64,000 bases of DNA from Achromobacter pulmonis. GTDB lineage: Bacteria; Pseudomonadota; Gammaproteobacteria; Burkholderiales; Burkholderiaceae_B. The stretch lies in the NCBI RefSeq assembly GCF_002885955.2, contig NZ_POQS01000003.1, positions 520,208 through 584,207 on the forward strand. The letters run 5' to 3'. This document shows positions 35,874 through 46,992 of the stretch, piece by piece; position 1 is the stretch's first letter, and each line of letters starts with the position of its first letter. The notes under the pieces were generated by a model. It was not told where the DNA came from, did no database searches, and was given only the letters and a program-made list of their open reading frames with translations. The translations under genes were made by a program, and so were the position numbers.

Positions 35874-37049
35874 CTACATCTTGCATTGCGCCGCGTGCAC
35901 GTCGGTGTGGTCGCGGGCGATGACCTTGAGGTTCTTGTAGGTCAGCTTGCCGTCCGGCCCGGCTTCGATGTGCAGCAGATACCAGTCCTGGACCGGATGC
36001 TGGTTGGGCCCGAACTTGAACTTGCCGCGCACGCTGGGGAAGTCGGCGCGGCGCAGCGCGGCGCGGAAGTCGTCGGCGCGGCCGGCGACGTCGCCGTCCA
36101 CGGCCTTCAGCGCCGAGCCGATCAGGTTGGCGGTGTCGTAGGCCTGCGCGGCGTAGGCCGTGGGTGCGCGGTTGTAGGCCTTGGTGAAGGCTTCGACGAA
36201 GTGCTTGTTCTGCGGATTGTCCAGGTCGGCGCTCCACAGCGAGCTGAGGTAGAAGCCCGCGCCGGCGTTGCCGGTGGCGGCCAGCATGCGGTCGTCCATG
36301 GAGTAGATCGGCGTGATCATTTTGATCTGGCCGGCCAGTCCGGAATTGGCGAACTGCTTGGTCAGGTTGATGCCCGCGCCGCCCGGATGGAACTGGAAGA
36401 TGGCGTCGGGCTTGAGCGAGCGGATGCGCGCCAGCTCCACCGAGAAGTCGGCCTGTTCCAGCTTGGTGTAGATCTCGTCGGCGATCTCGCCCTTGTAGGT
36501 GCGCTTGAAGCCGGCTACCGCGTCGCGTCCGGCCTGGTAGTTGGGCGCCATGATGACCACCCGCTTGGCGCCCAGCTCATTGGCCGCGATGCCCGCGGTG
36601 TCGGCGTAGGAGTCGTTCTGGAAGGCCACCGAGAAGTAGTTCGGGTTGCAGGCCTTGCCGGCGTAGTTCGACGGGCCGGCGTTGAGGCTGACGTAGAAGG
36701 CGCCGGCGTTCAGCACGGTGGGGCCGACCGCCGCCATCACGTTCGAGAAATTGATGCCGGTGAACAGGCGCACGCCGCTTTGCACCATCTTGTCGGCGAT
36801 CTGCTTGGCGTTGGCGGGCTTGAGCGCATCGTCCTCCACGCGCAGGTTGACCGGCACGCCGCCCAGCTTGCCGCCGCCTTCCTTGATGGCCAGCATGAAG
36901 GCGTCGCGCTCGTCCTCGCCGATGTAGCCGGCCGGCGTGGACAGCGTGCCAATGAAGCCGATCTCCACCGGCTTGGTCTGCGCGGAGGCGGCGAACGAGG
37001 ACAGCGCCAGCGCGAGGACGGCGGCCGCGCCGCCTAAGGTCTTTTTCAT
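35874..37049 (-). CDS. Periplasmic binding protein of the second liv system
   Basis: A 391-residue protein with signal peptide (MKKTLGGAAAVLALALSSF ... ASAQ), then a type I binding fold: IGFIGTLSTPAGYIGEDERDAFMLAIKEGGG, VNLRVEDDALKPANAKQIADKM (parts of a canonical LivJ-like order). The group includes aromatic-acid receptors such as those for benzoate-type ligands as well as amino-acid receptors. Being inside a gentisate-pathway operon suggests an aromatic ligand (inference). It is 27 bp downstream of the 3-hydroxybenzoate hydroxylase-like gene. Confidence 0.9.
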   Translation of the reverse strand: MKKTLGGAAAVLALALSSFAASAQTKPVEIGFIGTLSTPAGYIGEDERDAFMLAIKEGGGKLGGVPVNLRVEDDALKPANAKQIADKMVQSGVRLFTGINFSNVMAAVGPTVLNAGAFYVSLNAGPSNYAGKACNPNYFSVAFQNDSYADTAGIAANELGAKRVVIMAPNYQAGRDAVAGFKRTYKGEIADEIYTKLEQADFSVELARIRSLKPDAIFQFHPGGAGINLTKQFANSGLAGQIKMITPIYSMDDRMLAATGNAGAGFYLSSLWSADLDNPQNKHFVEAFTKAYNRAPTAYAAQAYDTANLIGSALKAVDGDVAGRADDFRAALRRADFPSVRGKFKFGPNQHPVQDWYLLHIEAGPDGKLTYKNLKVIARDHTDVHAAQCKM

Positions 37050-37076: not shown

Positions 37077-38300
37077 TTACTGCGCCGTATTCCCCGCGAG
37101 GCAGTTTTCCACTTTCCAGCCGTACAGCCACTGCAACGCGTCGTAGAACTGGGACTGGCTGCGGCCGGTCCACAGCATGTTGCGCACGGTGCGTTCGACG
37201 CCCCGCGCGTGATAGAGCCTGCCCATCTCGCGGGTGGACCACACCACGCGCGCGCTGCGCGGGATGCGGACCGACTCGTAGAGGCGGAAGGCGGCTTGCA
37301 GGTCGTGGCCACATCGGCGCACGGCCTCGCCCAGCGTCACCGCGTCCTCCAGCGCCATGCAGGCGCCCTGGGCCATGTACTGGGTCATGGGGTGGGCGGC
37401 GTCGCCCAGCAGCGTGGCGCGTCCCTGGCCCCAGCGTTCCACGGGCTCGCGGTCGGCGGTGGCCCAGCGTTTCCAGGAGGTGGGGCGGTCCAGCATCTGG
37501 CGCGGGCGCGGATGGATGCCCTCGAAGTAGGACAGCACCTCTTCCTTGCTGCCCTCGCGCACGCCCCATTGCTCCTGTTCGCGGCTGTGGAAGGTGACCA
37601 CCAGGTTGTATTGCAGCCCGCCGCGCAAGGGGTAGTGCACCAGGTGGCAGTGCGGGCCGGCCCACAGCACCGGCGCGTTGATGCGCAGCTCTTCGGGCAT
37701 GTTCTCGCGCTCGACCACGGCGCGGTAGACGACGTGGCCGGTCACGCGGGCCGGGTCGCCCACCATGTGTTCGCGGATCACGGACTTCACGCCGTCGGCG
37801 CCCACCAGCGCGTCGGCGCGGTAGCGGTTGCCTTCGGTGTCCGTCACTTCCACGCCCTTGCCGTCCTGCGACATCGCGGCGATCTGGGTGGAGGTGCGAA
37901 AGCGGATGAGCGGATTCTGCTGCACCGCCTCCAGTATCGACAGATGGATGTCGGCGCGGTGGATGACGGCGTAGGGGCCGCCGAAGCGCTCGCGGAACGC
38001 CTCGCCGGTGTCGATGCGCACCACTTCGTGGGCATCGACCGCGTCCATCATGATGATGTGGTCGGTGAACACGGCGCGTCCGCGCGCCGCCGCGCCCACG
38101 CCCAGCGCGTCCAGCGCCGCGAAGGCATTGGGGCCGAGCTGGATGCCGGCGCCGATCTCGCCGATATGGGCGGCCTGCTCCAGCAGCTGCACCGCGACGC
38201 CCTGGCGGGTCAGCGCCAGCGCGGCGGCCAGGCCGCCGATGCCGCCGCCGACGACGATGACGGATTGTCCGGTGGCTTGAGGGTTATTGCTTGCGTTCAT
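37077..38300 (-). CDS. FAD-dependent 3-hydroxybenzoate 6-monooxygenase-like enzyme
   Basis: A 407-residue class A flavoprotein monooxygenase. The N-terminal VVGGGIGGLAAALAL binds FAD, VGADGVKSVIREHM is the DG motif, and LLGDAAHPMTQYMAQGACMALEDAV is the second FAD/NADH motif. The QGACMALEDA and C-terminal GWKVEN segments resemble 3-hydroxybenzoate 6-hydroxylases and salicylate hydroxylases. The product would be gentisate, which the dioxygenase at 44843 would open. Salicylate 1- or 5-hydroxylation is an alternative. Confidence 0.82.
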   Translation of the reverse strand: MNASNNPQATGQSVIVVGGGIGGLAAALALTRQGVAVQLLEQAAHIGEIGAGIQLGPNAFAALDALGVGAAARGRAVFTDHIIMMDAVDAHEVVRIDTGEAFRERFGGPYAVIHRADIHLSILEAVQQNPLIRFRTSTQIAAMSQDGKGVEVTDTEGNRYRADALVGADGVKSVIREHMVGDPARVTGHVVYRAVVERENMPEELRINAPVLWAGPHCHLVHYPLRGGLQYNLVVTFHSREQEQWGVREGSKEEVLSYFEGIHPRPRQMLDRPTSWKRWATADREPVERWGQGRATLLGDAAHPMTQYMAQGACMALEDAVTLGEAVRRCGHDLQAAFRLYESVRIPRSARVVWSTREMGRLYHARGVERTVRNMLWTGRSQSQFYDALQWLYGWKVENCLAGNTAQ

Positions 38301-38318: not shown

Positions 38319-39671
38319 TCAGTCCTGGCCGCCCAGGAAGGCGCCTTGCTGCCGCAGCTGGGCCTGCAGGGCGGAAATGGATATATCGGCCGGCGCGACG
38401 CCGGCGCGCAGCGCCATCGCCGCGGCGGTGCCCGCCGCTTCGCCCATCACGAAACAGCTGCCGCTCACGCGCGCGGCGGATTGGCCTTCGTGCGTCATGG
38501 ACGCGCAGCGCCCGGCCACCAGCACGTTGTCCGCCACGTCCGGGCCGGGGCGCGGCACCAGCATGCGAAACGGCAGCTGGTTGTAGCCGCGCGATTGCGG
38601 AATGGGCGGCCACAGCCACTGCACGTCGCCGGCGGTATGCATTTCCAGCGGCCAGCCGTTGACGCCGATGCTGTCCTCGAAGTCGGCGCAGCCCAGCACG
38701 TCGTCCTTGCTCAGCACCGCGGCGCCCACGAGCCGGCGCGTTTCGCGGATGCCGAGCTGGGGCGCGATGTCCAGCACATAGGCCTGCTCGAAGCCGGGCA
38801 CTTTGGCGCGCAGGAACGCGAGGTACTGCACGATCTGGCGACGGCCTTCCAGCTCGCCGGCCGACAGCGAGTCGGCGTCGGTGCCGTCGGCCGCGCTGCC
38901 GTCGGCGTTGGCCAGCTGGGTGACGTTGACGCGCCATTCGTAGTCGTGCTTTTGCGGCCGCACGATGGCGCCGCGGCGCGGAAACGTGAACTCGCCGCTG
39001 GCGGCGGCCTGGTCCATCAGCTGCGGAATGGTTTTCCACGCCTCCTGGGCGCGCGCGCCGTCCACGTTGCCGACCTTGAACATCAGCGTGGGATAAAGCA
39101 TGCGGCCGCGCTCATCGCCCTTTTCGAGAGGCAGGCCGGCCCAGCGCGCGATCTCGGCGTCGCCGGAGCAATCGATGAAGATGCGGGCCCGTACCGCGCA
39201 GCGCCCCGACTTGGTTTCCAGGAACAGCGCATTGGCCCGCCCGTCCTCGCCGCGCGACAGCCCCGTGGCCAGGGCATGGAACAGCACCTGCGCGCCGCTG
39301 GCCTGGACCATGTCGTCGGCGGCGCATTTGAAGGCCGAGATGTCGTAGGCCTGGGCGTGGATCTTGCCGAGGATGAGATGCGGGTGGTTCAGGCCGTCCA
39401 TGGCGCGCATGCGGTCGAGCAGCTCGTCGGTCATGCCGTGCACGACCTGGCGGATGTCGCCGCGGACATTGGCGTGCAGCCCGCAGAAATTCGACACGCC
39501 GGCGGCCGTACCCATGCCGCCGAGAAATCCGTAGCGCTCCGCCAGCAGCACGCGGGCGCCGTTGCGCGCCGCGCTGGCGGCGGCCAGCAGGCCGGCCGGT
39601 CCGCCGCCCAGCACGACGACGTCGAATTCGCCGTACAGCGGGGTCTGGCGGGCGGGTTCGGTGATGACCAT
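38319..39671 (-). CDS. FAD-dependent oxidoreductase, PF12831-type
   Basis: A 450-residue flavoprotein. The N-terminal FDVVVLGGGPAGLLAAASAARNGARV is an FAD-binding Rossmann site. The body includes GGMGTAAGVSNFCG, IFIDCSGDAEIARWAG and near the C terminus NVLVAGRCASMTHEGQSAARVSGSC, the arrangement of the FAD-dependent oxidoreductase group that includes many poorly characterised catabolic enzymes. It starts with GGAGAACC upstream. Its step in the aromatic pathway is not evident; side-chain dehydrogenation of an aromatic precursor is possible but unproven. Confidence 0.82.
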   Translation of the reverse strand: MVITEPARQTPLYGEFDVVVLGGGPAGLLAAASAARNGARVLLAERYGFLGGMGTAAGVSNFCGLHANVRGDIRQVVHGMTDELLDRMRAMDGLNHPHLILGKIHAQAYDISAFKCAADDMVQASGAQVLFHALATGLSRGEDGRANALFLETKSGRCAVRARIFIDCSGDAEIARWAGLPLEKGDERGRMLYPTLMFKVGNVDGARAQEAWKTIPQLMDQAAASGEFTFPRRGAIVRPQKHDYEWRVNVTQLANADGSAADGTDADSLSAGELEGRRQIVQYLAFLRAKVPGFEQAYVLDIAPQLGIRETRRLVGAAVLSKDDVLGCADFEDSIGVNGWPLEMHTAGDVQWLWPPIPQSRGYNQLPFRMLVPRPGPDVADNVLVAGRCASMTHEGQSAARVSGSCFVMGEAAGTAAAMALRAGVAPADISISALQAQLRQQGAFLGGQD

Positions 39672-39710: not shown

Positions 39711-40724
39711 TTACTGCGCCTTGATGCCGAGCTTGCGGATCAGCGGCGCCCAGCGATTGAGCTCATCGTCCATATAGGCGCGGAATTCGGCCGGCGTGTC
39801 GCCCACCGGGTCCATGAACTGGGCCTGCAGCCGCTTGGCGACTTCGGGGTCGCGCACTGCCTGGATCAGGGCGTCGGACAGCTTCTTGCGCACGTCGGCG
39901 GGCGCCCTGGACGAGATCACGAAACCGATCCACGCCGAGCCTTCGATGTCCGGCACGCCGGCCTCGGCCAGCGTCGGGATGTCGGGCAGCAGGGCCGAGC
40001 GTTTGGAGGAGGTGACGGCCAGCGCCTTCAGGCGGCCGTCCTTCACCATGGGCATGACGGCGATGGGCGGCAGCGCGGCGAATTGCGTATCGCCCGACAG
40101 CAGCGAACTGAGCGCGGCCGGCGAGGACGGATAGGGAACGTGGGTGGCGCGCGCGCCGATTTGCTGCAGCATCAGCTCCACGGCCAGGTGCGAAACCGTG
40201 CCCGCGCCCGGCGACGGAAAGTTGTACTTGTCGGGGTTCTGCTTGAGCGCCTGCAGCAGCTGGCCCACGCTGCCGATGCCGGCCGCGGCGGGCACCACCA
40301 GCACGTTGGGCTGGTGCACCGCCAGCGTGAGCGGCGACAGGTCGGTGGCCGGCGCGTAGGGCAGCTTGTCGAAAAGCAGCGTGTTGTTGACCAGCGGCCC
40401 CGTGATGGACACGCCGAAGGTGTAGCCGTCGGGCTTGGCGTTGGCGATGGCGTAGGTGCCGATGTTGCCGCTGGCGCCCGGCTTGTTCTCGATGACGATG
40501 GCCTGGCCCAGAATGGCGCCGGCCTTCTCGCCGACGATGCGGGCCACCTGGTCGGGGCTGGAGCCCGGGCCGAACGGCACGATGGCCTTGAGCGGCTGGG
40601 CCGGCCAGGTTTGCGCATGCGCCGCGGCCAGCGGCGCCAGGGCGGCAAGCGCCAGCGCCAGCGCGCGGCGGGCGATGCGGCGCACGGGCAGGGCGGGGGC
40701 GGCCGGCGTCGAGAACTCAGGCAT
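39711..40724 (-). CDS. Bug-family substrate-binding protein
   Basis: A 337-residue Bug protein. A charged N-terminal segment (PVRRIARRALALALAALAPL) precedes a signal cleavage near AAHAQ. The mature part has AIVPFGPGSSPDQVARIVGEKAG and VIENKPGASGNIGTY, typical of the family. Its first codons overlap the chorismate-mutase-like gene by 8 bp. It probably captures an acid processed by this operon. Confidence 0.9.
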   Translation of the reverse strand: MPEFSTPAAPALPVRRIARRALALALAALAPLAAAHAQTWPAQPLKAIVPFGPGSSPDQVARIVGEKAGAILGQAIVIENKPGASGNIGTYAIANAKPDGYTFGVSITGPLVNNTLLFDKLPYAPATDLSPLTLAVHQPNVLVVPAAAGIGSVGQLLQALKQNPDKYNFPSPGAGTVSHLAVELMLQQIGARATHVPYPSSPAALSSLLSGDTQFAALPPIAVMPMVKDGRLKALAVTSSKRSALLPDIPTLAEAGVPDIEGSAWIGFVISSRAPADVRKKLSDALIQAVRDPEVAKRLQAQFMDPVGDTPAEFRAYMDDELNRWAPLIRKLGIKAQ

Positions 40725-41103
40725 GGGTGTCTCCTCCCAGGTCTTGCATGGTGTCGAAGTACGTCTGCTCGTTGGCGATGAAGGCGGCGACCATCGCGCG
40801 GTAGGTGGCGTCGACCACCTGTTCCAGATTGGCGAAGCCCCGGTTGTGCGTCACGGCCAGCCGCCGCGCCTTGTCGTAGACCTGGGCCTGGCGGGCTGGC
40901 GCGCTGACCTGGAAGGCGTCGCGCTTGAAGCGCGCGGCGTCCTTGACGTACATGGCGCGTTCGGCGATCAGCTTCACGATCTCCTCGTCCAGCCGGTCGA
41001 TGTTGGCGCGCACCTCGGCCAGCGTGGCGCACAGCGGCCGGTAGGCGGGATCGGTGTAGGCGCGCAGCGGCACGCCCTGGGCGTCGGGTTCCCGGTTCGT
41101 CAC
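40717..41103 (-). CDS. Chorismate mutase / PchB-like isochorismate-pyruvate lyase family protein
   Basis: A 128-residue all-helical AroQ-type protein. Aligned by eye with PchB, the catalytic Arg14, Arg31 and Lys42 correspond to Arg32, Arg49 and Lys60 (LAEVRANIDRLDEEIV; AERAMYVKDAARFK), and an acidic/amide pair at Glu112-Gln113 falls near PchB Gln90. PchB removes pyruvate from isochorismate to give salicylate and also has weak mutase activity. The start is GTG at 41103, overlapping the isomerase stop by 4 bp (GTGA). An aromatic-amino-acid role is unlikely in a degradative operon; the real substrate is unknown. Confidence 0.82.
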   Translation of the reverse strand: MTNREPDAQGVPLRAYTDPAYRPLCATLAEVRANIDRLDEEIVKLIAERAMYVKDAARFKRDAFQVSAPARQAQVYDKARRLAVTHNRGFANLEQVVDATYRAMVAAFIANEQTYFDTMQDLGGDTHA

Positions 41104-41790: not shown

Positions 41791-42759
41791 CTATTGCGCG
41801 GTGATTCCGGTTCGGGCGACGACGTCGTCCCAGCGTTTGGCGTCGCGGGCGATCAGGGCGCCGAACTCGGCCGGGGTCGAGGTGGCGGGGACCATGCCCT
41901 GCGCATCGAATGCGGCGGCGGTGGCCGGTGTCTTGAGGATGCCGTTGATCTCGCGGTTCATGCGGTCGAGGATGGCCGCCGGCGTGCCCCGGGGCGCCAG
42001 CACGCCGTACCACATGTCCACGTCCGCGCCTTGCAGGCCGGCCTCGGTCAGGGTGGGCGTGTCGGGCAGCTGCGGCAGGCGCCTGGGGCTGCCGGTGGCG
42101 ATCACTTTGAGCTTCCCGGCCTGTACCTGCGGCAGCGCCACGTGCACCGGCAGGAACATATAGTCCAGCCGGCCGCCGAGCATGTCGGTGACCGCGCCCG
42201 AGGTGCCTTTGTAGGGGACGTGCAGCATGGCGGCGCCGGTGCGGTCCAGGAACAGCGCCATCGACAGGTGATGGGGCGTGCCCACGCCCGGCGTTCCGTA
42301 GCTGAGCTTGCCGGGCGCGGCCTTGGCTGCCTGGACCACGTCGGCAACCGTGTTGGCGGGATTGGAAGGATGCGTCACCAGCAGCAGGGAGCCCCAGGAT
42401 GTCAGGCCCACGGGCGCGAAATCCTTCAGCGGGTCGAACCGCAGCTTGCCCTTGTAGAGGCTGCTGTTCATGACGAACGTGTTCACCGTCACCAGGAAGG
42501 TGTAGCCGTCGGGGGCGGCGCGCGCCGCTTTTTCGGTGCCGATGTTGCCGCTGGCGCCCGCCAGGTTTTCGACCACGACCGGCTGGCCCAGCGTCCGCGG
42601 CAGGCTGGCGGCCAGCTGGCGGGCGATCAGGTCGATGCCGGTGCCCGGCGTGAAGGGCACGATCAGCGTGACCGGGCGCTCAGGCCAGGATGCGGCGTGG
42701 CCGGCGGCGCAGCCGAAAGCGAATGCCGCCGTGGCCAGGATGCGTATGAGCTTGCGCAT
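41791..42759 (-). CDS. Bug-family substrate-binding protein
   Basis: A 322-residue Bug protein with a clean signal peptide (MRKLIRILATAAFAFGCAAG, cleavage near HAA) and the family motifs LIVPFTPGTGIDLIARQLA and VVVENLAGASGNIGTEKAA. It is the second Bug gene of the operon, between the PhzS-like monooxygenase and the isomerase gene. No tctAB genes are nearby. Confidence 0.9.
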   Translation of the reverse strand: MRKLIRILATAAFAFGCAAGHAASWPERPVTLIVPFTPGTGIDLIARQLAASLPRTLGQPVVVENLAGASGNIGTEKAARAAPDGYTFLVTVNTFVMNSSLYKGKLRFDPLKDFAPVGLTSWGSLLLVTHPSNPANTVADVVQAAKAAPGKLSYGTPGVGTPHHLSMALFLDRTGAAMLHVPYKGTSGAVTDMLGGRLDYMFLPVHVALPQVQAGKLKVIATGSPRRLPQLPDTPTLTEAGLQGADVDMWYGVLAPRGTPAAILDRMNREINGILKTPATAAAFDAQGMVPATSTPAEFGALIARDAKRWDDVVARTGITAQ

Positions 42760-42808
42760 GGTTCGTCTCCATTCTTTCGGCCGGTCGGGCGCCGGCTTGG
42801 GGCGCGTA

Positions 42809-44068
42809 CTACACGTAGGGAGGCCGCGCTTTCAGCGCGGCCGGGTCGAAGCCCGCCACCTCCTTGTAGCGGCGCGATATTCCTTCCAGTTCTTCGCGGC
42901 CGATGACGTCTTCGATCCTGGCGTAGGGCCGGTCCGCCGAACGCAGGTGGACTTCGCGCAGGATCGCGTCGGGCGGGTTGCTGCGGTTGGTCAGCACGAC
43001 CCGGGTGGTGGCCTCGACGCGGACGCGGTCGTAGTGCTGCAAGGCTTCGGGCTCCAGGCCGACGCGCTTGAGCTGGCCGGTCAGGTAGCGGGCGTCGACC
43101 ACGGCCTGGCCGGCGCCGTTGGAGCCGCGCGGCACCATGGGGTGGGCGGCGTCGCCGAGCAGGGTCATGCGGCCGCGCGTCCAGGTGGGCAGCGGGTCCT
43201 GGTCCACCATCGGATATTCCAGGATCGAGTCGGCGTCCTGGATCAGGCGCGCGACGTCCAGCCAGTCGAAATGCCAGTCGGCGAAAGCCGGGAAAAAATC
43301 TTCCAGCCGGCCGCTGCGGTTCCAGTCGCGCACGGCGGGTTCGGCAGCCTCGATCTCGGCCACCCAGTTCACCAGCTGGTTGCCCGCCGCGTCGATGTTG
43401 TCGCGGATCGGATAGATCACCATCTTGCCGGTGGACAGCCAGCCGGCGCGCACCATGCTGGCGCCGGACAGAAAGGGCTTGCAGCGGGTGGTGCCGCGCC
43501 ACATGTTCACGCCGGAATAGCGCGGGGCGCCTTCCTGCGGATAAAGCTGCTTGCGCAGGGCCGAGTGGATGCCGTCGCAACCCACTGCGATGCGGCCGCG
43601 CACCGGGGGCAGGGCATTGCCGTCGTTGTCCTGGAAGCGCGCCGTGACGGAATCGGCGTCCTGTTCCACGCCGGTGCAGCGCGCATCGACGACCACGCTA
43701 TCGTGGCCCAGGCGCTCGCGCACGGCGCCCAGCAGCGCCATTTGCAGATCGCCGCGGTGGATGGAATATTGCGGCCAGTCGTAGCCGGCGTCGATGCCGG
43801 CGGGCTCGCTGTAGATGAATTGCCCGTGCCGCGTGTAGAACACCGATTCGCGCGTGCGCACGGCGATGCGGTCCAGCACGGGCAGCAGGCCCAGTTCGTC
43901 CAGCTCGCGCGTGGCGTGGGGCAGCAGATTGATGCCCACGCCCAAGGGCCTGATTTCGCGCACCGCCTCATAGACGCGGCAGGCGATGCCGGCCTGGTGC
44001 AGGCTCAGCGCCAGGACCAGGCCGCCGACCCCGGCACCGATGATGACCACATCGGTATCTGTTTTCAT
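42809..44068 (-). CDS. FAD-dependent monooxygenase (PhzS/salicylate-hydroxylase-like)
   Basis: A 419-residue class A flavoprotein. FAD site VVIIGAGVGGLVLALSLHQAG, DG motif VGCDGIHSALRKQLYP and GD motif LLGDAAHPMVPRGSNGAGQAVVDARYL are present. The PRGSNGAGQAVVDA loop is closer to PhzS-type hydroxylases than to the 3-hydroxybenzoate hydroxylase in the same operon. It could hydroxylate a heterocyclic or aryl acid that feeds into the gentisate route. It is placed between the fumarylpyruvate hydrolase gene (2 bp gap) and a Bug gene. Confidence 0.8.
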   Translation of the reverse strand: MKTDTDVVIIGAGVGGLVLALSLHQAGIACRVYEAVREIRPLGVGINLLPHATRELDELGLLPVLDRIAVRTRESVFYTRHGQFIYSEPAGIDAGYDWPQYSIHRGDLQMALLGAVRERLGHDSVVVDARCTGVEQDADSVTARFQDNDGNALPPVRGRIAVGCDGIHSALRKQLYPQEGAPRYSGVNMWRGTTRCKPFLSGASMVRAGWLSTGKMVIYPIRDNIDAAGNQLVNWVAEIEAAEPAVRDWNRSGRLEDFFPAFADWHFDWLDVARLIQDADSILEYPMVDQDPLPTWTRGRMTLLGDAAHPMVPRGSNGAGQAVVDARYLTGQLKRVGLEPEALQHYDRVRVEATTRVVLTNRSNPPDAILREVHLRSADRPYARIEDVIGREELEGISRRYKEVAGFDPAALKARPPYV

Positions 44069-44070
44069 GG

Positions 44071-44769
44071 CTACGCCACCTGCACGCTGAGCGTGCCCAG
44101 GCCGTCGACGCCGCCGACCATGCGGTCGCCGCGCACCACCGGGCCCACGCCCTCGGGCGTGCCCGTGTAGATCAGGTCGCCGGGCTCCAGGCGGAAGTAG
44201 CGGGAAAGATAGGAGACCGTCTCGGCGACCGACCAGATCAGCTTGCCGATGTCGCTGCGCTGCTTGTCGGCGCCGTTGACCTGCAGCCAGATGGCGGCGC
44301 GGCCGATGTCGGGCACCGAGGCGGCGGGGTGCAGCGGGCCGATGGGGCCGCTCTGGTCGAAGGCCTTGCCCAGTTCCCAGGGGCGGCCGGCTTCGCGCAT
44401 TTTCATCTGCAGGTCGCGGCGCGTCATGTCCAGGCCCACGGCATAGCCCCAGACGTGTTCGAGCGCCTGTTCGACCGGGATGTCCGCGCCGCCGCGGCCG
44501 ATGGCCGCCACCAGTTCGATCTCATAGTGGAAGTTGGCGGTCTCGGGCGGGTAGGGCAGCGTGAGCGTGCTGCCTTCGGCCACCGGCACCACGGCGTCGG
44601 CCGGCTTGCAGAAGAAGAACGGCGGTTCGCGGTCGGGATCGAAGCCCATTTCGCGGGCGTGGGCGGCGTAGTTGCGGCCCACGCAATAGACGCGGCGCAC
44701 CGGGAAGCGCTGGTCGCTGCCGGCCACGGGCACGGCGACGGGAGCGGCGGGATCGAAGACGTAAGACAT
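44071..44769 (-). CDS. nagK: Fumarylpyruvate hydrolase (FAH family)
   Basis: A 232-residue FAH-family hydrolase. [19 protein letters not shown] opens the domain; [13 protein letters not shown] has the metal-binding Ex[15 protein letters not shown] and [16 protein letters not shown] are the later family motifs. It would cleave fumarylpyruvate to fumarate and pyruvate, the last step of the gentisate path. Length (about 230) fits NagK-type enzymes rather than the longer fumarylacetoacetases. Confidence 0.9.
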
Positions 44770-44842: not shown

Positions 44843-45895
44843 TCAGCCGTTGCGGGCTTCGCGCCAGACGCCCAGCGCGTCCTGCACCGGACGGTCGGAG
44901 TAGCTGAAGAGCGTGGCGTCTTCCAGCGCGGCCAGCTCCACCGGCGCCCACGACGGCGCGACGAACACGTCGCGCGGACCGAAGTGGAACTCCTGCTCGC
45001 CGATGCGGGCGGTGCCGCGGCCCTCGACCACGCTATAGACGGTGGAATCGGTGCTGCGGTAGGGCTTGCCCTGGAAGCCGGCCGGCAGCAGCTGCATGAA
45101 GGTCGCCATCGTCGGCATCGGATAGCCGCCGGTGGCCGGGTTCAGGTAGCGCAGCTTCACGCCGTCCCAGGGGTCGAGCTCGCCGTGGCGGTAGAGCTGG
45201 TCCAGCGCCTCGCGGCTGCGCTCGTAGGGATAGTTGAAGATGGGCGAGGTGCCGCCGGCGGCCTGGTGGCGCACCGGCATCATGTTGTGGCCGTAGCGCG
45301 CCATGCTGTCGCCTTCGGGGCGGGTCACGGGCTGGGTGGCGGCGGGATAGTTCTCGGCGAAGCCCGCGTCCAGGAAGCGCAGCAGCGGGATGTCCAGGCC
45401 GTCGAGCCACACCACCGGCTCGCCGCCCTCGGCGGTCTCGGTGTTGCCGTGGTCGTGCCAGGTCCAGGACGGCGTGATGATGAAGTCGCCCGGGTGCATG
45501 GTGGTGCGTTCGCCATTGACGGCCGTGTAGGCCCCGCGGCCTTCGACGATGAAGCGCAGCGCCGATTGCGTGTGGCGGTGGCTGGGCGCGATTTCGCCGG
45601 GCAGGATCAGCTGCAGGCCGGCATACAGGCTTTGCGTGATGCTGGCCTGGCCGGGCAGGCCGGGGTTTTCCAGGATCAGCACGCGCCGCACCGCTTCCTC
45701 GGCGCTGATGAGCGAGCCCGAGGCCATGACGTCGTCGCGCACTTCATCGTATTTCCAGATCGCCGGCACGCAGCGCGGCGCAGGTTCGCGCGGCACCAGG
45801 TTGTGCAGCGACTCCCACAGGGGAGCCATGTTCTTCTTGGCGATGCGCGCGTAATACGCGGCGCGATCGGCGGCGGGAAGGCGGCCGTCTTGCAT
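44843..45895 (-). CDS. Gentisate 1,2-dioxygenase
   Basis: A 350-residue double-cupin enzyme. In the first cupin the iron-binding histidines are visible in [12 protein letters not shown] and TWHDHGN (around residues 105-150). The second cupin (about 240-330) ends in [14 protein letters not shown]. It opens gentisate to maleylpyruvate with O2 and Fe(II). It is the first gene of the long minus-strand operon, 161 bp from the divergent LysR gene. The identity is well supported by the isomerase and hydrolase downstream; 1-hydroxy-2-naphthoate dioxygenases are the nearest alternative. Confidence 0.9.
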
Positions 45896-46056: not shown

Positions 46057-46992
46057 ATGGACTGGACCCATCGATTGCGCCTGCGCAATCTGAAAATGCT
46101 GCTCAGCCTGGCCCAGACCCGCAACATCAGCCACTCGGCCGCGATGCTCAACACCACGCAGCCGGGCCTGTCCAAGTGGCTGAAGGATCTGGAAGACGAC
46201 ATCGGGTTGCCGCTGTTCGAACGCCACGCCCGCGGCCTGCGGCCGACGCCGCACGGCGACGTGCTGATCGCGCACGCGCAGCGGGTCGAGGCCCAGCTCG
46301 ACCGCGCCAGCGCGGACATGGCGGCGCTGCGCGAAGGCGGCGGCGGCCGCGTGGTGATCGGCGCGTCCGGCGCATCGGCCTCGGACACCGTGCCGCTGGC
46401 GGTCCTGAAACTGCTGGAGCGCATGCCGCAGGCGCGCGTCAAACTGGTCGAGGGCACCACCGACCTGCTGCTGGGCCAGCTGGCGCAGGGCGACCTGGAC
46501 ATCGTGGTGGGCCGCTCCGCGCCCGAACACCACGACCCCGCCATCCGCTTCGAGGCCCTGTACCTGGAGCCCATCCACCTGGTGGCGCGGCCGCGCCATC
46601 CGCTGTTCTCGATCGAGCAGCCGTCCTGGCAGGACCTGCTTTCGTATCGCTGGATACTCTGGCCCAAGGGCACGCCGATCCGCAACGCCGTGGACGCGGC
46701 GCTGGCGGCGGCGGGGCAGGCGCCGCCGCCCGATCACGTGGAATCCAATTCGGTGACCGTCAACCTCACCCTCATCAACAACAGCGACATGATAGGCGTG
46801 GCCTCGCATCGCGCCGCGCTGCGGTTCACGCAGATGCGGGCCATGCGCGTCATTCCGGTGCGGCTGTCCGGCTTCGGCTCGGTGGCGATGTACTGGCGCG
46901 AGGACCAGTTCCGCCCGCTCGCGGTGCAGCAGGCCATGGCCGCGCTGCGCAATACCGTCGCGGAACACGCTTCGGGCGCGGCGAGGGTGTGA
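46057..46992 (+). CDS. LysR-family transcriptional regulator of the gentisate operon
   Basis: A 311-residue regulator with N-terminal helix-turn-helix LKMLLSLAQTRNISHSAAML and TTQPGLSKWLKDLE, and a C-terminal effector domain. It is divergent from gentisate dioxygenase, the usual place for a LysR activator of aromatic-acid catabolism. Its last base pair overlaps the start of the membrane-protein gene (TGATG), so the two may be co-translated. The inducer is likely gentisate or the aromatic precursor (inference). Confidence 0.9.
   Translation: MDWTHRLRLRNLKMLLSLAQTRNISHSAAMLNTTQPGLSKWLKDLEDDIGLPLFERHARGLRPTPHGDVLIAHAQRVEAQLDRASADMAALREGGGGRVVIGASGASASDTVPLAVLKLLERMPQARVKLVEGTTDLLLGQLAQGDLDIVVGRSAPEHHDPAIRFEALYLEPIHLVARPRHPLFSIEQPSWQDLLSYRWILWPKGTPIRNAVDAALAAAGQAPPPDHVESNSVTVNLTLINNSDMIGVASHRAALRFTQMRAMRVIPVRLSGFGSVAMYWREDQFRPLAVQQAMAALRNTVAEHASGAARV

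Follow-up and report, generated by a model that had tools for sequence, protein, structure and literature searches.

Organization of the locus

The window, as we call the whole 64,000-nucleotide stretch of Achromobacter pulmonis DNA that was analysed, carries the gene for a small PchB-like protein among the following genes (coordinates in the window, strand, product).

35874–37049, (−): putative LivK-like ABC-transporter binding protein, judged by the appearance of its sequence; it trails the operon in part of the loci
37077–38300, (−): 3-hydroxybenzoate 6-monooxygenase (NF006021, 734 bits, cut-off 459)
38319–39671, (−): FAD_oxidored (PF12831) protein, from a family search
39711–40724, (−): TctC/Bug-type periplasmic receptor, directly downstream of the PchB-like gene
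40717–41103, (−): PchB-like AroQ-fold protein, GTG start, 128 aa
41100–41738, (−): MaiA-type (maleylpyruvate/maleylacetoacetate) isomerase (TIGR01262, 286 bits, cut-off 171)
41791–42759, (−): second TctC/Bug-type receptor, optional in the operon
42809–44068, (−): FAD monooxygenase of the PRK07538 subfamily, optional in the operon
44071–44769, (−): FAH-family hydrolase, from a family search; probably fumarylpyruvate hydrolase, from its position
44843–45895, (−): gentisate 1,2-dioxygenase (TIGR02272, 581 bits, cut-off 442)
46057–46992, (+): divergent LysR-type regulator, from a family search

By its predicted products, the operon around the PchB-like gene is a gentisate catabolic operon. The FAD_oxidored protein scored over the cut-off in none of the 25 NCBIfam models listed for it. 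An earlier note, made from the nucleotide sequence, had described the PchB-like gene as translationally coupled on both sides, and the overlaps bear this out: its GTG start overlaps the stop codon of the isomerase gene by 4 nt (41100–41103), and its own stop overlaps the start of the receptor gene by 8 nt (40717–40724).

The PchB-like protein belongs to the CM_2 family (Pfam PF01817; AroQ, chorismate mutase type II superfamily), with 54.1 bits and an E value of 1.9e-14 against a cut-off of 27, and its best relative of solved structure by sequence is PchB of P. aeruginosa (E 2.4e-7). It scored below the cut-offs of both narrower models, with 59.9 bits against 126 for the PchB equivalog (NF005475) and 47.7 bits against the curated 73.35 for the chorismate mutase-like subfamily TIGR01803. 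For the adjoining receptor, sequence comparison with solved structures placed Bug27 and other TctC-type proteins nearest, a terephthalate binder among them; these matches do not fix its ligand.

The PchB-like gene and a receptor gene form a conserved pair

A protein search of 250 genomes of the family found orthologues at E 3.6e-51 or better in 50 of them, the window's own included, and a scan of named genomes returned 113 stretches encoding a relative, indicating that the reading frame is not a product of chance. The order-level search yielded 31 of 349 genomes at E 1e-6. In seven of these the match reached E 1.4e-38 or lower; the remaining 24 hold looser relatives and were left out of the clade. 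The best 80 of the 113 stretches were kept as loci, and come from Achromobacter, Bordetella, Candidimonas, Verticiella, Pigmentiphaga, Ramlibacter, Caenimonas, Variovorax, Hydrogenophaga, Xylophilus, Ottowia and unclassified Burkholderiales.

In 79 of these best 80 loci a receptor gene lies directly downstream of the PchB-like gene, its product 45–93% identical to that of the window. The PchB-like gene and the TctC/Bug receptor gene form a conserved two-gene unit that accompanies salicylate-5-hydroxylase/gentisate catabolism in Burkholderiales. By context, the same 80 loci comprise 35 of gentisate type, as in the window, 27 in which the pair accompanies genes for salicylate 5-hydroxylase (NagGH), and 18 of neither kind; the 27 include one cut contig (L154) with the small-subunit gene 8 bp upstream, and would otherwise be 26, with 19 of neither kind.

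The isomerase gene lies directly upstream of the PchB-like gene in 34 of the 35 gentisate-type loci. In Bordetella sp. BOR01 (L114) it lies 5.4 kb away, with other open frames between, and the receptor pair is intact. The FAD monooxygenase and second receptor genes (41791–44068) behave as a cassette: both occur in 15 of the 35 loci, always between the hydrolase and isomerase genes, the receptor gene alone in one, and neither in 19.

Association with salicylate 5-hydroxylase

Most pairs in Variovorax, Hydrogenophaga, Xylophilus, Ottowia and Pigmentiphaga belong to a Rieske oxygenase operon, either in its interior or as its last genes, the exceptions being two loci of Variovorax (L162, L164) and one of Pigmentiphaga (L123). 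When the products of one such Variovorax operon were compared with salicylate 5-hydroxylase (7c8z), the large subunit matched at E 7e-235 and the small subunit at E 8e-62. We also searched for NagG in 19 genomes, namely those of the 18 loci of neither context and that of the gentisate-type locus L112, with L154 left out. A NagG-like gene was present elsewhere in the genome for 17 of the 18 (E 1e-120 or better; best matches 62–84% identical), these genes being called by similarity that reaches down to 62% identity and not by individual comparison with 7c8z. Among the 19 genomes, NagG was not found in those of L140 and L112.

The same association is apparent among the 250 family genomes, of which 50 have the PchB-like gene, 64 have NagG and 77 have gentisate dioxygenase. 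NagG occurs in 48 of the 50 carriers, all except G005 and G139, and gentisate dioxygenase in 49. Within the 77 genomes with gentisate dioxygenase, the PchB-like gene is present in 47 of the 62 with NagG versus 2 of the 15 without it (Fisher p 1.3e-5, or 0.011 outside the window's genus, values that ignore kinship and serve as a guide only). Conversely, 16 of the 64 genomes with NagG lack the PchB-like gene, indicating that salicylate breakdown as such can do without this gene, which is an accessory to it.

The assignment of the pair to salicylate/gentisate catabolism is thus well supported. The earlier note had suggested that the gene might feed a hydroxybenzoate to ring cleavage; the ring-cleavage setting holds, in the form of the gentisate operon, but the 3-hydroxybenzoate context proved too narrow, the stronger partner being salicylate 5-hydroxylase and the conserved unit being the pair with the receptor. 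A role tied to gentisate only was set aside as the main link, because 27 of the 80 pairs lie in NagGH operons and NagG is tracked better than gentisate dioxygenase.

The window's own genome encodes NagG at 78% identity, near pabB and away from the pair. That locus (L208 6851–9988, C76) contains genes for the large and small subunits, a ferredoxin and a LysR-type protein; a reductase gene was not found in the 18-kb stretch around it. The same genome has a second gentisate-dioxygenase-like gene, 44% identical (G000:C25:442334–443356), and genes of similar identity are found in many relatives.

Active site, fold and phylogeny

Arg32, Arg49, Lys60, Ala68, Arg71, Gln72 and Glu112 are invariant in the 59 aligned clade members, that is, the window protein and those of 58 of the 80 loci. 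The numbering of Arg32, Arg49 and Lys60 in the earlier note was right, and both sequence and profile alignments pair these residues with the catalytic Arg, Arg and Lys of PchB; with Arg71, which matches the Arg of the second loop, the set is complete in 59/59. Gln113 was considered as the equivalent of the PchB Gln and dropped, because the profile alignment places the invariant Glu112 there. Judged by this invariant catalytic set, the protein is likely to be an enzyme.

The clade differs from its known relatives at Gln72, which in 59/59 members occupies the position of both PchB Val55 and Glu52 of the E. coli mutase (EcCM), the residue linked to the 4-OH. Val55 forms the bottom of the PchB pocket, and across AroQ proteins this position holds Glu in about 80% of cases, followed by Val in 8% (PMC12329711). 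Mutase activity is considered to depend critically on the contact of this Glu with the 4-OH of chorismate, and the V55E change in PchB lowers lyase efficiency 17-fold (PMC12329711). The available part of that paper makes no mention of Gln at this position. Looser relatives in our tree mostly have Val, Ile or Lys there, and a PchB sequence over the NCBI cut-off (L169) has Phe. The N-terminal segment is also distinctive, being about 18 residues longer than that of PchB, with invariant Glu5, Pro6, Arg14, Tyr21 and Pro23; it was predicted with good confidence (mean pLDDT of the whole predicted structure, 89.6).

Foldseek searches with the predicted structure returned PchB chains as the ten best matches, four of them from complexes with salicylate and pyruvate. 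With VIA-align, five PchB entries scored Z 10.5–10.9, whereas the E. coli mutase scored 9.4 and a sixth PchB entry, 2h9c, only 9.2; Z gaps of 1–1.5 in a small helical bundle are weak evidence. The structural preference for PchB over mutase is therefore modest. In a tree of the window protein, 18 clade loci and 40 relatives, the clade emerged as a single branch with support of 100/99, separate from the two PchB sequences over the cut-off; the alignment has few columns, and the joins deep in the tree, including that between clade and PchB, lack resolution.

The AroQ fold and the conserved Arg/Arg/Lys/Arg set would suit a working chorismate mutase in the operon, for example one that keeps up the supply of prephenate when salicylate or hydroxybenzoates crowd the shikimate enzymes, and PchB itself is weakly mutase-active and complements a mutase-deficient strain (PMC12329711). 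Nevertheless, a tuned chorismate mutase appears unlikely, because the proteins form a clade of their own with Gln where most AroQ proteins have Glu and PchB has Val. Moreover, the window's genome already encodes two other CM_2 domains over the cut-off, both with Glu at this position and one belonging to a 367-aa PheA-type frame, and a mutase leaves the receptor unexplained. Overall, we regard a mutase function as unlikely.

We hold in similar doubt that the protein is not an enzyme and instead binds salicylate or a hydroxybenzoate in the cytoplasm, serving the import and hydroxylation system as a carrier, sensor or regulator; this role and the mutase are the chief competitors of the lyase reading given below. 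The adjoining receptor gene in nearly every locus agrees with such a role, as do crystals of PchB, K42 mutants included, that contain salicylate and pyruvate according to their entry titles; but binding alone would probably not require all of Lys60, Arg71 and Glu112 to be invariant.

Source of the substrate

The window's genome contains two Chorismate_bind genes. The first exceeds the cut-off of the model for anthranilate synthase component I and the second those of two aminodeoxychorismate synthase models, and the isochorismate and salicylate synthase models listed all scored below their cut-offs in it. With neither synthase found in its own genome, the PchB-like protein would need an outside source of substrate. 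An isochorismate synthase over the cut-off was likewise found in none of 23 and none of 32 carrier genomes, two overlapping sets that include the window's genome; the first is part of the carriers from the family and order searches, and the second was taken without L155. The same model gave matches below the cut-off in 23 and 31 of these carriers, and scored over the cut-off in 7 of 14 controls. Endogenous isochorismate was therefore rejected for the tested genomes, and it is unlikely that the protein performs PchB chemistry on isochorismate made by the cell itself.

The adjacent receptor suggests that the substrate is imported. Plants make isochorismate and, via PBS3, isochorismoyl-glutamate for salicylate synthesis, and the latter loses N-pyruvoyl-glutamate to yield salicylate (PMC11416591); the word "apoplast" does not occur in the available part of this paper.

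A possible pyruvate lyase feeding the gentisate pathway

Our best single guess, to which we give a probability of about 36%, is that the protein is a PchB-like pyruvate lyase, supplying the gentisate pathway with salicylate made from an isochorismate-type compound that the cell imports. The receptor would help to import an isochorismate-type enolpyruvyl compound, either isochorismate itself or one of its conjugates, for example isochorismoyl-glutamate from plants, and a cytoplasmic dimer would release salicylate by pericyclic loss of pyruvate, as PchB does. Salicylate 5-hydroxylase, whose genes lie either in the operon of the pair or at another genomic site, would then produce gentisate, to be degraded by the ring-cleavage operon. 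Arg32, Arg49, Arg71 and Lys60 would keep both carboxylates and the ether oxygen in place, with Glu112 placed where PchB has its catalytic Gln, roles that we assume to carry over from work on PchB and mutases.

This lyase is favoured because the substrate of salicylate 5-hydroxylase is the product of a PchB-type lyase. Chorismate cleaved in the same fashion yields 4-hydroxybenzoate, for which we know of no use by the enzymes of the window operon. The earlier note had proposed the removal of pyruvate from (iso)chorismate or from an enolpyruvyl aryl ether. The general idea of a pyruvate lyase gains from a fold nearest to PchB, from Gln in place of Glu throughout the clade and from the tie to salicylate 5-hydroxylase, and loses from the lack of an isochorismate synthase over the cut-off in the tested carriers and from the score below the PchB model. 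Also counted against a lyase are the polar Gln72 in place of Val55, in view of the 17-fold cost of V55E; the doubt as to whether isochorismate occurs free outside plant cells; and the genomes in which NagG was not found (G005, G139 and that of L140). We do not classify the protein as a PchB: three traits of PchB were tested, namely a score over the model cut-off, Val at position 55 and a synthase in the same genome, and none agreed; it is PchB-like in action at best.

Salicylate is a plant defence hormone. Soil and root bacteria might tap the plant salicylate pathway at the step before salicylate, taking up isochorismate or isochorismoyl-glutamate by means of the receptor, converting it into salicylate within the cell with the lyase and degrading this through salicylate 5-hydroxylase and the gentisate pathway. 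We consider this quite improbable; if true, it would be a new way of draining a plant immune hormone at its precursor, with a PchB-type enzyme in catabolic use.

With PchB of the pyochelin synthesis of P. aeruginosa, the protein shares the AroQ alpha fold, as its nearest solved structure, the Arg/Arg/Lys/Arg set, Ala where the E. coli mutase has Asp48, and the absence of Glu at the Val55 position. Unlike PchB, it occurs in a catabolic and not a siderophore context, is paired with a receptor, lacks an accompanying isochorismate synthase over the cut-off in the tested genomes, has Gln for Val55 and a longer N-terminal segment, and forms a separate clade below the NCBI cut-off. The PheA domain of E. 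coli, an AroQ mutase, has the same fold and basic catalytic residues, but differs in Glu52 and Asp48, here Gln and Ala, and in the catabolic operon. The nag pathway of Ralstonia sp. U2 and Massilia likewise combines NagGH with gentisate ring cleavage; the word "chorismate" does not occur in the available main text of the Massilia paper (PMC13215587). By title and the opening of the abstract, none of the papers among the matches listed in the open-access literature is concerned with this gene in operons for gentisate or salicylate.

A biosynthetic enzyme is not expected in operons for salicylate/gentisate breakdown, and a well-studied catabolic route gains a conserved two-gene unit with a testable substrate class. 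To our knowledge, PchB-type enzymes are known only from biosynthesis. A lyase would thus mean that pericyclic pyruvate elimination is used in catabolism, and would imply a source of salicylate besides the free compound for Variovorax, Achromobacter and their kin. If the protein is not a lyase, it illustrates the recruitment of an AroQ protein for a new purpose, with consequences for ideas on the origin of PchB-type activity from mutases.

Two further substrates would draw on the gentisate operon itself. The isomerase gene directly upstream and a basic, carboxylate-binding site could point to keto or enol acids of the lower pathway (maleylpyruvate, fumarylpyruvate), on which the protein would act, for example, as a tautomerase; this is very improbable, as the 27 NagGH-type loci place the gene in a salicylate 5-hydroxylase operon instead, and it is rare in gentisate dioxygenase genomes without NagG. 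Least probable of all is the cleavage of an aromatic enolpyruvyl ether, for example of 3-[(1-carboxyvinyl)oxy]benzoate to 3-hydroxybenzoate, which the 3-hydroxybenzoate 6-monooxygenase of the operon and a site without the 4-OH-linked Glu would fit, but which leaves unexplained the NagGH operons, starting from salicylate, and to which the PchB-type hydrogen shift would, on chemical grounds, be unavailable on an aromatic ring.

Tandem copies and plasmid relatives

Tandem PchB-like genes occur in two genomes (G275:C10:6343–6953 and G705:C4:102571–103200), the matched stretches lying about 40 and 90 bp apart. Plasmids were considered as carriers and set aside, since they yielded only distant relatives, with less than 60% identity and none with 80% query coverage (best row, 46% identity over 68%). 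A small PchB-like "chorismate mutase" (L168 5992–6279) is common on Klebsiella plasmids, which make up 77 of the 87 plasmid records matched; in the one record examined, the plasmid gene lies near arsenic genes, an unrelated context.
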